In this document: one piece after another, positions 28,268-31,335 of the stretch | How the letters are laid out: each line of letters begins with the position of its first letter | Position numbering within the stretch: the stretch's first letter is position 1 | Source: Actinomycetota bacterium | GTDB taxonomy: Bacteria; Actinomycetota; Acidimicrobiia; Acidimicrobiales; Acidimicrobilacustridaceae | Assembly: GCA_009703275.1 (NCBI GenBank) | Contig: WLGJ01000005.1 | Coordinates: 1-32,608 of the forward strand | Direction of reading: 5' to 3' | DNA: 32,608 nucleotides | Notes under the pieces: model-generated | What the model was told of the DNA's origin: nothing | Database searches by the model: none | What the model saw: only the letters and a program-made list of their open reading frames with translations | Translations under genes and position numbers: made by a program

Positions 28268-28518
28268 TCGGGACCCCGCTCTGTTGTGGTACCTGAGAGT
28301 TTCGCTTCGAACGGCGACCGGGCCCCAAGGAACCTGGTCGTCGTTGTCGACTTTCCCCGTCGGTGAGTCACCTACGTGAGTAAGCGACTGCTCTCCAGAG
28401 TTGCCTGCGCAAGCGGTACATGGGCCTGAGAGTTTCCCGGGGGGTTGCTCCTTCGGCGCCAGACACTTTCCGTTCGATCGAGTTGATCGTTTGGCGAATG
28501 ACTGGACTCTCCCGCAAG
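28268..28518 (-). ncRNA. Tandem glycine riboswitch upstream of gcvP
   Basis: Reverse complement shows GGGAGAGTCC...GGCGCCGAAGGAGCAACC...GGGAAACTCTCAGGCCC...CTCTGGAGAG, then CACCGACGGGGAAAG...GCGAAACTCTCAGGTACC...AGAGCGGGG: two glycine-aptamer cores in tandem. Confidence 0.9.
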
Positions 28519-28548
28519 CGGTGATCAGCGTCAGTTGTCTTTTGGAAC

Positions 28549-29355: not shown

Positions 29356-29480
29356 CGCAGCTCTCCATTCTTTTGGGGGCATCACCCCGCTGCCGTGGGA
29401 CGATCCTATGTCCGCCATGGCATCAGATGACGTCCTTGACCGAGCGTCTCTTTGCTGTTTACCTAACGACACAACAAGTT

Positions 29481-29599
29481 GTTCTCGTGTGAGGGGAAGT
29501 TCGGTGAGAATCCGGCGCTGTCCCGCAACCGTGTGAGTGTTGGCTCTTTGGTTCTTGCCAGAGGGGTGGCAGTCGAGTCGGATCACCGAACCCGAGAAC
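29481..29599 (+). ncRNA. Cobalamin (adenosylcobalamin-type) riboswitch aptamer
   Basis: GAGGGGAAGTTCGGTGAGAATCCGGCGCTGTCCCGCAACCGTGTGAGT (B12-box core) and AGTCGAGTCGGATCACC 3' part; perfect closing stem GTTCTCG (29481-29487)/CGAGAAC (29593-29599). Confidence 0.92.
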
Positions 29600-29710
29600 G
29601 AAGCTCATCATCACCGTCGTGGAATGCGGTGTCGAGCCTCGAACTCTTGCGCCATTAGGTGTTCGACGAGGACCGACATTGTTCAAGCGTCGGTCCAAAT
29701 AAAGGACATC

Positions 29711-30880
29711 ATGAACATTCTCCCAACACGAGTTTCGACTCGCATCCGTCGCGGAACGGTTGCGGTGGTCGTTGCACTCGTCGCTGTTCTCGGCATAACG
29801 AACTTCCCAGCCTCAGCGATTTCAACACCAGAATCGTCGTTGACGTCCAGCTGGCTGGCTGCGCAGGTTGGTCCTACGGGGGAAGTCAACATCAGCGGTG
29901 CCACACAGTCGATCGTCACGCAGACGATGTACGTCGCTCAGGGTCTCGCGGCAACGGGGGAGCAGCGTGATGCACTGGATCGTGCGATGTCATATCTCTC
30001 GCTCAACAGCAGCATCGAAGAATGGGTTACGAACGACGGAAGTGGTGGCACCGTTGCACCACCTGGCGCTGACCTCCCTGAGCGTCTCGCAGCATTGATC
30101 CTGCTCGTCAACACCACGCGGGGAAACCCAAGAGCCTTCGGAACTCCTGCGGTGGATCTCGTTGCTCGAGCCCAAGCCATGTACGGCCAAGTTGTTCCAG
30201 GGTTCTACGGCTACCAAGAGCCGTGGTCGTCAATTCAGGATCAGTCGTTGATGGTGATTGCGTTGCAGGCTGTGGGGGCGACGCCTCCAACAGCGGCCAT
30301 TGACTGGCTTGTCGATCAACAATGTGTGGGCGGTTCCAATCCGCAGAGCTCACTCGGCGGTTGGCAAGCATTTCGGGCGTCGAATGGCAATGTCATTCAG
30401 GACTGCGATGCTCCTGACCCCATCAACTACGTAGGCGCTGACACCAACTCCACAGCGTTTGCAGTACAGGCATTGCAACTGTTTGGTCGGACGGCTCCGG
30501 TTGCTTCAGCGGTGACGTTCTTGCAGAGCGCACAGGCGACGAGCGGATCCGGTGCCGGTGGGTTCCCGTGGTTCACCGGGGGAGACGTGGACGCCAATTC
30601 CACTGCGCTAGTTCTCCAAGCAATCACGGCGATGGGTCAAGCTCCTTCGTCATGGTCGGTCGGTGGCGCAGATCCCCTTGATGCGCTCGAGGCATTTCAG
30701 CTTTCGTCGCCGGCCAGCGATGCCGGGGCGTTCTTTGCGAGTTGGAATCCTGGGGTGCCCGATCTGCTTGCCTCGTACCAGGGGGTCTGGGGCTTGACCC
30801 TCACCGCCTTCCCGTTCCCGGTACTTCCAGATCGCACCGTGGTCATCGAGCCAGTCGCCGTTCCTGCGTTCACCGGGTAA
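29711..30880 (+). CDS. Secreted alpha/alpha-toroid (prenyltransferase/squalene-oxidase-repeat-like) protein under cobalamin riboswitch control
   Basis: 389 aa from ATG 29711 (SD AAAGGA); signal peptide RTRIRRGTVAVVVALVAVLGITNFPASA-like (sequence: MNILPTRVSTRIRRGTVAVVVALVAVLGITNFPASA); repeats such as DQSLMVIALQAVG, STAFAVQALQLFG, STALVLQAITAMG with GGW/GGFPWF segments. Confidence 0.85.
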   Translation: MNILPTRVSTRIRRGTVAVVVALVAVLGITNFPASAISTPESSLTSSWLAAQVGPTGEVNISGATQSIVTQTMYVAQGLAATGEQRDALDRAMSYLSLNSSIEEWVTNDGSGGTVAPPGADLPERLAALILLVNTTRGNPRAFGTPAVDLVARAQAMYGQVVPGFYGYQEPWSSIQDQSLMVIALQAVGATPPTAAIDWLVDQQCVGGSNPQSSLGGWQAFRASNGNVIQDCDAPDPINYVGADTNSTAFAVQALQLFGRTAPVASAVTFLQSAQATSGSGAGGFPWFTGGDVDANSTALVLQAITAMGQAPSSWSVGGADPLDALEAFQLSSPASDAGAFFASWNPGVPDLLASYQGVWGLTLTAFPFPVLPDRTVVIEPVAVPAFTG

Positions 30881-30929: not shown

Positions 30930-30958
30930 CGATATTGAGTAATATCGTCACGTGACGA
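30930..30958. promoter_or_regulatory. Two overlapping perfect inverted repeats at the start of the 30952 gene
   Basis: CGATATT-GAGT-AATATCG (30930-30947) and TCGTCACGTGACGA (30945-30958); TAATAT -10-like element at 30940-30945 ends 6 nt before GTG 30952. Confidence 0.6.
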
Positions 30959-31335
30959 AATTACCCGAAGGTGAGAGTGGCCGGGCAAACAACGCTGTGA
31001 GGTGCCGTTGGTGTGGTCGTCCCGTTGAACCCCGTGAGGGTCCGGGTCGACCACGGTCGTTCTGTCGGGATGGCTGCAAGCAACAGTCGTATATGGCTCG
31101 GAAGTTGGCTCAGTCGCACGGACTCGACGACAACGATGTGATTATCGATCGCGTTGCGCTGGAGGAACTCCAAGGACTGCTGTATTGCCTCCAAGCTGCC
31201 GTCGAAGATGTTGAACGAGATCTTGCCGCATCGTCGACGGCCCAGGACGTCTCGGAGGCGTTGGCGTGGCTTATGGAGAATGCGGAGCCTCTGGCTGCGG
31301 CAAGGCTCGAGCCTCGGATGGCGACGCTGATCTGA
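30952..31335 (+). CDS. Small zinc-finger-like uncharacterised protein
   Basis: 127 aa; CRWCGRPVEPREGPGRPRSFCRDGCKQQSYMARKL then helical C-terminus. Confidence 0.8.
   Translation: MTKLPEGESGRANNAVRCRWCGRPVEPREGPGRPRSFCRDGCKQQSYMARKLAQSHGLDDNDVIIDRVALEELQGLLYCLQAAVEDVERDLAASSTAQDVSEALAWLMENAEPLAAARLEPRMATLI

Follow-up and report, generated by a model that had tools for sequence, protein, structure and literature searches.

What is the function of a secreted alpha/alpha-toroid protein whose gene stands directly behind a cobalamin riboswitch, and does it serve vitamin B12 at all? This question is raised by a locus in the window, by which we mean the whole stretch of 32,608 nucleotides that was analysed. 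The host appears to be a freshwater actinobacterium: its close relatives in a single-protein scan are all MAGs labelled as Actinomycetota, Acidimicrobiia or Microthrixaceae, and the habitat is taken from the lake-type isolate names that several of them bear. The B12-dependent methionine synthase MetH is present in 21/21 genomes of the genus, while a search for CbiC finds it in none of the 21, so that the genus uses B12 with probably no de novo synthesis, and judging by this gene content it is probably dependent on imported B12.

The riboswitch and the toroid gene

An E-value scan of the leader of the toroid gene against all 4227 Rfam families places an AdoCbl (cobalamin) riboswitch aptamer (RF01482) at 29468-29639 of the plus strand, with 42.2 bits and E=1.7e-6. 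As the gathering score of RF01482 is 50, the element falls under the threshold, and for this reason it is missed by the Rfam scan of the whole window at gathering threshold, which returns a tandem glycine riboswitch besides two tRNAs. In the alignment of nine toroid leaders, the aptamer core is invariant, and in the P1 stem (alignment columns 65-70 with 187-192) both strands change together so that they still pair. Moreover, an RF00174 aptamer is located directly 5' of the toroid gene in all 11 of the genus genomes whose sequence before this gene is intact, several of the wider toroid homologues have at the same position a riboswitch above the gathering score, and the homologues L013 and L022 meet the gathering threshold of RF01482. 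The original prediction had put a cobalamin aptamer before this gene, and with the E-value, the covarying P1 stem and the occurrence throughout the genus this part of it stands; as far as can be read from sequence, the cobalamin riboswitch of the window is genuine and far beyond chance. Such an element would bind AdoCbl and switch expression of the gene behind it.

The probable expression platform is predicted at 29640-29710 (plus strand) from a single fold of this part of the window together with a consensus fold of the nine leaders. It comprises a strong hairpin, GGACCGAC...GUCGGUCC, located 5' of the ribosome-binding site, and a helix of the platform by which, in the consensus fold, GUUCG may base-pair to AAGGAC of the Shine-Dalgarno region. 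From the hairpin and this pairing, control by the toroid riboswitch at the level of translation seems plausible in the predicted folds, and its direction is presumably that B12 represses.

The gene itself (29711-30880, plus strand) encodes a secreted alpha/alpha-toroid protein of 389 aa, similar to the transcobalamin alpha domain and to SCO2321, as delineated by its ORF, ribosome-binding site, start conservation, AlphaFold2 (AF2) model and NCBIfam match. Its likely start is the ATG at 29711, which has AAAGGAC just 5' and is kept in close relatives. The GTG at 29537, the first codon of the long ORF, was rejected as a start because it lies inside the aptamer. Residues 1-36 (29711-29818, plus strand) have the basic N-region, the hydrophobic core and the ASA before the cut that are expected of a signal peptide, and cleavage is likely after ...FPASA, a pattern which sequence reading and alignment find in the homologues as well. 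The AF2 model, built with 26 homologues, reaches a pLDDT of 88.6 and a pTM of 0.85 with inner and outer toroid helices, and together with its Foldseek matches it presents the alpha6-alpha6 toroid of the transcobalamin/intrinsic factor family; a single signal-peptide toroid protein behind the aptamer had thus been correctly foreseen. The only two cysteines of the protein, Cys205 (30323-30325) and Cys232 (30404-30406), both encoded on the plus strand, are invariant in the alignment and likely form a disulphide with each other.

By Foldseek, the best PDB matches of the toroid model are alpha/alpha-toroid proteins, and terpene cyclases, linalool dehydratase-isomerase, RabGGTase and complement C5 make up most of the 50 listed. 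Transcobalamin is absent among these 50, which means that the fold comparison of the toroid alone is unspecific; the comparison with transcobalamin and intrinsic factor that had been proposed as a check did not single the toroid out among the matches listed. At the level of sequence, no Pfam family matched, a single-sequence search of PDB gave no match, a profile search of PDB gave squalene-hopene cyclases, and in neither of the latter two was transcobalamin matched. With the NCBIfam family SCO2321_fam (NF053823) the toroid scores 102.8 bits (E=1.9e-29), short of the curated cut-off of 300. The second proposed check, on the catalytic motifs of cyclases, turned out in favour of a non-cyclase, since DxDD or DDxxE is found in 0/26 toroid homologues.

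The C-terminus of the toroid merits attention in its own right. It ends in a P-A-F-T-G-stop tail (30863-30880, plus strand), a candidate sorting or anchoring signal on the basis of homologue conservation and genome recurrence. In the form P-x-[FY]-[TA]-G-stop the tail is shared by 23 of the 26 toroid homologues, and as a DNA pattern P-x-F-T-G-stop occurs 17 times in the host genome against 0 control matches, about 15 of the occurrences lying in frame at the C-terminus of a protein, in most cases a large secreted protein or a repeat protein (the window toroid and L214, L216, L218-L221 and L223-L230). Across the family the pattern is enriched, often with 5-36 occurrences per genome, while the remaining families of the order are mostly near background, with the exception of G041 and G417. 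No transmembrane helix follows the motif. This distribution makes P-x-F-T-G-stop a candidate for a new C-terminal sorting signal.

As for the surroundings, a tandem glycine riboswitch identified with Rfam (28274-28524, minus strand) precedes gcvP (25334 onwards), which is an ordinary arrangement and is kept beside many homologous toroid loci. A small cysteine-containing protein with no confident family match is encoded at 30952-31335 (plus strand), 72 bases 3' of the toroid gene.

The proposed partner protein and the ECF operons

Two cobalamin riboswitches are found in the host genome, that of the toroid gene and another at C39:3624-3786, and the same pattern of two is found in most of the genus. 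The second riboswitch precedes a gene whose product, the beta partner, is secreted and anchored in the membrane by its C-terminus, and has relatives in 20/20 other genus genomes searched (21/21 with the host genome). It scores 52-63 bits with the NCBIfam family SCO2322_fam (NF040672), under the cut-off of 85, and a search of PDB by sequence profile gives no link. In its AF2 model, the 16 best PDB matches are transcobalamin, haptocorrin and intrinsic factor, and the isolated transcobalamin beta domain is matched with a TM of 0.68 (5no0) and 0.66 (5np4, which by its PDB entry name is this domain with cyanocobalamin). The beta-domain fold of the transcobalamin/intrinsic factor system is therefore present, on a separate protein, and the transcobalamin signal comes from the fold of the partner and not from the toroid. 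We regard this as the strongest single result of the analysis: the only other gene of the genome found under a cobalamin riboswitch would, according to its modelled fold, encode the counterpart of the toroid in the carriers of animals.

In relatives, the beta gene is followed by genes for a CbiQ-like EcfT, a double ECF ATPase and an S-like membrane protein. The host MAG is 78% complete and its contig C39 ends inside the beta gene; the S-component is not detected in this 78%-complete MAG and is present in 19/20 other genus genomes. The remark of the original prediction that no transporter gene is adjacent holds in the window, where EcfT, ECF ATPase and S-component are not beside the toroid gene; in relatives these ECF genes are located instead with the beta gene at the locus of the second riboswitch.

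Across a sample of the phylum, toroids of the SCO2321 type cluster with a beta gene of the SCO2322 type, EcfT, the double ATPase and the S-component, some of these clusters being without a recognised beta gene. Several toroid-ECF clusters of other families are headed by cobalamin riboswitches, while the Streptomyces-like toroid operons (L111-L113, so called for their NCBIfam SCO2321 matches above cut-off) have no cobalamin riboswitch at gathering threshold. A search with PF14478 (DUF4430) yielded ten further loci (L191-L200) that combine DUF4430, ECF ATPase, S-component and toroid, and a cobalamin riboswitch at gathering threshold is found in 10/10 of them, with E from 3e-14 to 6e-28. Against PDB the DUF4430 profile gives a weak haptocorrin match (E=0.01), and the hhalign comparison of the beta partner with DUF4430 is likewise weak, with a probability of 3.8%. 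In two genomes the ECF S-component is even fused to the toroid in a single ORF (L194 2919-4895, minus strand; L195 7254-8840, plus strand), as recognised by PF12822/PF07155 together with prenyltransferase/SQHop matches. For the toroid, the link to ECF transport comes from the operons and the S-component fusions, and that to B12 from the riboswitches and the beta fold. A survey of homologues for riboswitches or ECF neighbours had been suggested at the outset, and riboswitch-headed toroid-ECF operons, the ten DUF4430 loci among them, are what it revealed. At one locus, L122, two toroid genes stand next to an ECF operon, and cobalamin riboswitches are matched four times.

In many homologues, the toroid gene with its own riboswitch is divergent from the glycine-cleavage side. 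The gene order suggests that the toroid gene has left an ECF operon and come to lie beside the glycine-cleavage locus, a rearrangement specific to the family of the window.

A probable split cobalamin binder and its alternatives

With a probability of roughly 0.7, we consider the window toroid to be an exported protein that forms the alpha half of a cobalamin binder, similar to transcobalamin but made of two proteins, which serves a CbrTUV-like ECF importer. This reading is built upon the riboswitch, the toroid fold of the model, the match of the beta fold, the control of both genes by one class of element, and the links by operon and fusion. When AdoCbl is scarce, both riboswitches would permit expression; the toroid would be secreted and probably retained at the cell surface, and the beta protein would be exported and held by its C-terminal membrane anchor. 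The toroid and the beta domain would then clamp cobalamin between them in the transcobalamin style, and hand it over to the S-component of the CbrTUV-like ECF importer, the genes of which lie 3' of the beta gene. A B12-repressed, exported toroid of the transcobalamin type, as opposed to a terpene enzyme, is what had been proposed for this locus, and it is well supported by the beta partner, the riboswitch-headed ECF operons and the two fusions. The stand-alone scavenger of the same proposal has to be given up on the same evidence, from which the toroid appears to belong to an uptake system of several proteins.

A bolder version goes further, and we would put it a little below even odds. According to it, the Actinomycetota possess a split transcobalamin whose halves are controlled by separate riboswitches and form a B12 clamp at the surface that feeds an ECF importer, the alpha plus beta design of animals is an ancient bacterial invention, and the P-x-F-T-G tail, as a new C-terminal sorting signal that other secreted proteins have too, delivers or holds the toroid in this lineage.

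Among the alternatives, an improbable one that still deserves serious weighing takes the toroid as a part of the B12 ECF system that binds no ligand and works as a scaffold for the beta protein or the S-component, the binding being done by the beta domain or the S-component. Toroids are in fact common scaffolds for proteins and ligands. The two S-component-toroid fusions would suit such a role, and so would the isolated transcobalamin beta domain that was crystallised with cyanocobalamin (5np4). The window toroid moreover contains no histidine at all, and hence no axial His for cobalt. However, in the known animal carriers a transcobalamin-type beta domain is paired with an alpha toroid, and this pairing is kept across actinobacterial families too; in addition, the alignment and the AF2 model show recurrent polar residues where the inner helices of the toroid begin.

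We find it less probable again that the true ligand is not cobalamin but a different corrinoid or a precursor, such as cobinamide, other cobamides or dimethylbenzimidazole. The fold of the beta partner matches carriers of cobalamin, and a search for CbiC itself found none in the genus, although the regulation says merely that the product is needed when AdoCbl is low, and the ECF-CbrT of Lactobacillus delbrueckii also takes cobinamide (PMC5997447).

An exported enzyme, either a terpene cyclase or one similar to prenyltransferases, which stands by chance behind a cobalamin riboswitch would agree with the best sequence and fold matches, namely squalene-hopene and drimenyl cyclases, but this identity is ruled out for practical purposes by the missing DxDD/DDxxE motifs, the export, and the co-occurrence with B12-riboswitch ECF operons and fusion to an ECF S-component. 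Least credible of all is a chance or decayed riboswitch match with a toroid gene free of B12 regulation, because the score under the gathering threshold is outweighed by the E-value over all Rfam, the covariation in P1 and the homologues that exceed that threshold at the same place.

If the split binder is true, it would explain how freshwater actinobacteria that are probably unable to make B12 take it up at very low levels. It would also assign a role to SCO2321, SCO2322 and a large number of DUF4430 proteins, and would be relevant to the origin of animal transcobalamin.

Comparison with known systems

To our knowledge, extracellular capture of B12 in bacteria is known mainly from BtuF-type binding proteins and from outer-membrane proteins of Gram-negatives. 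Rodionov et al. in 2009 reportedly predicted CbrTUV as ECF transporters of cobalamin, and additional components are said to be mentioned in SEED annotations, so that the operon link may in part have been recognised there before. In the open-access literature, no paper was found on the toroid and the beta protein in bacterial B12 uptake.

The ECF-CbrT of L. delbrueckii is likewise an ECF-type B12 importer, in which cobalamin is transported by CbrT and the ECF module alone (PMC5997447), whereas the window system would add two extracellular proteins. Squalene-hopene and drimenyl cyclases have the toroid fold and a weak repeat similarity in common with the window toroid, which differs from them by the absence of the catalytic motifs, by its secretion and by its B12-riboswitch context.

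Of the uncharacterised NCBIfam families SCO2321_fam and SCO2322_fam, the window toroid and the beta partner are distant members or sisters. The Streptomyces-like SCO2321/SCO2322 genes sit together with ECF genes, while the toroid gene of the window is located away from the operon. Furthermore, both the toroid and the beta domain of L111-L113 are circularly permuted relative to the window forms, and the toroids of L114 and L116 are permuted as well; for example in the toroid of L111, residues 93-287 match profile positions 150-359 and residues 299-409 match positions 33-146. The DUF4430-ECF-toroid operons similarly bring together a cobalamin riboswitch, ECF genes, a toroid and a domain of the transcobalamin C-terminal type, but in one cluster, and they carry DUF4430 where the genus of the window has a diverged SCO2322-like beta domain, the profile link between the two being weak.

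The vertebrate carriers transcobalamin, haptocorrin and intrinsic factor are likewise secreted and consist of an alpha/alpha toroid and a beta domain, and it is their fold that the predicted fold of the beta partner matches. In them the toroid and the beta domain form one chain with the beta domain C-terminal, whereas the protein of the window stops at the end of the toroid and the two halves are separate proteins under two riboswitches. Moreover, the beta half of the window type is membrane-anchored, unlike the vertebrate carriers, and the system is linked to an ECF importer where the vertebrate carriers are linked to a receptor.
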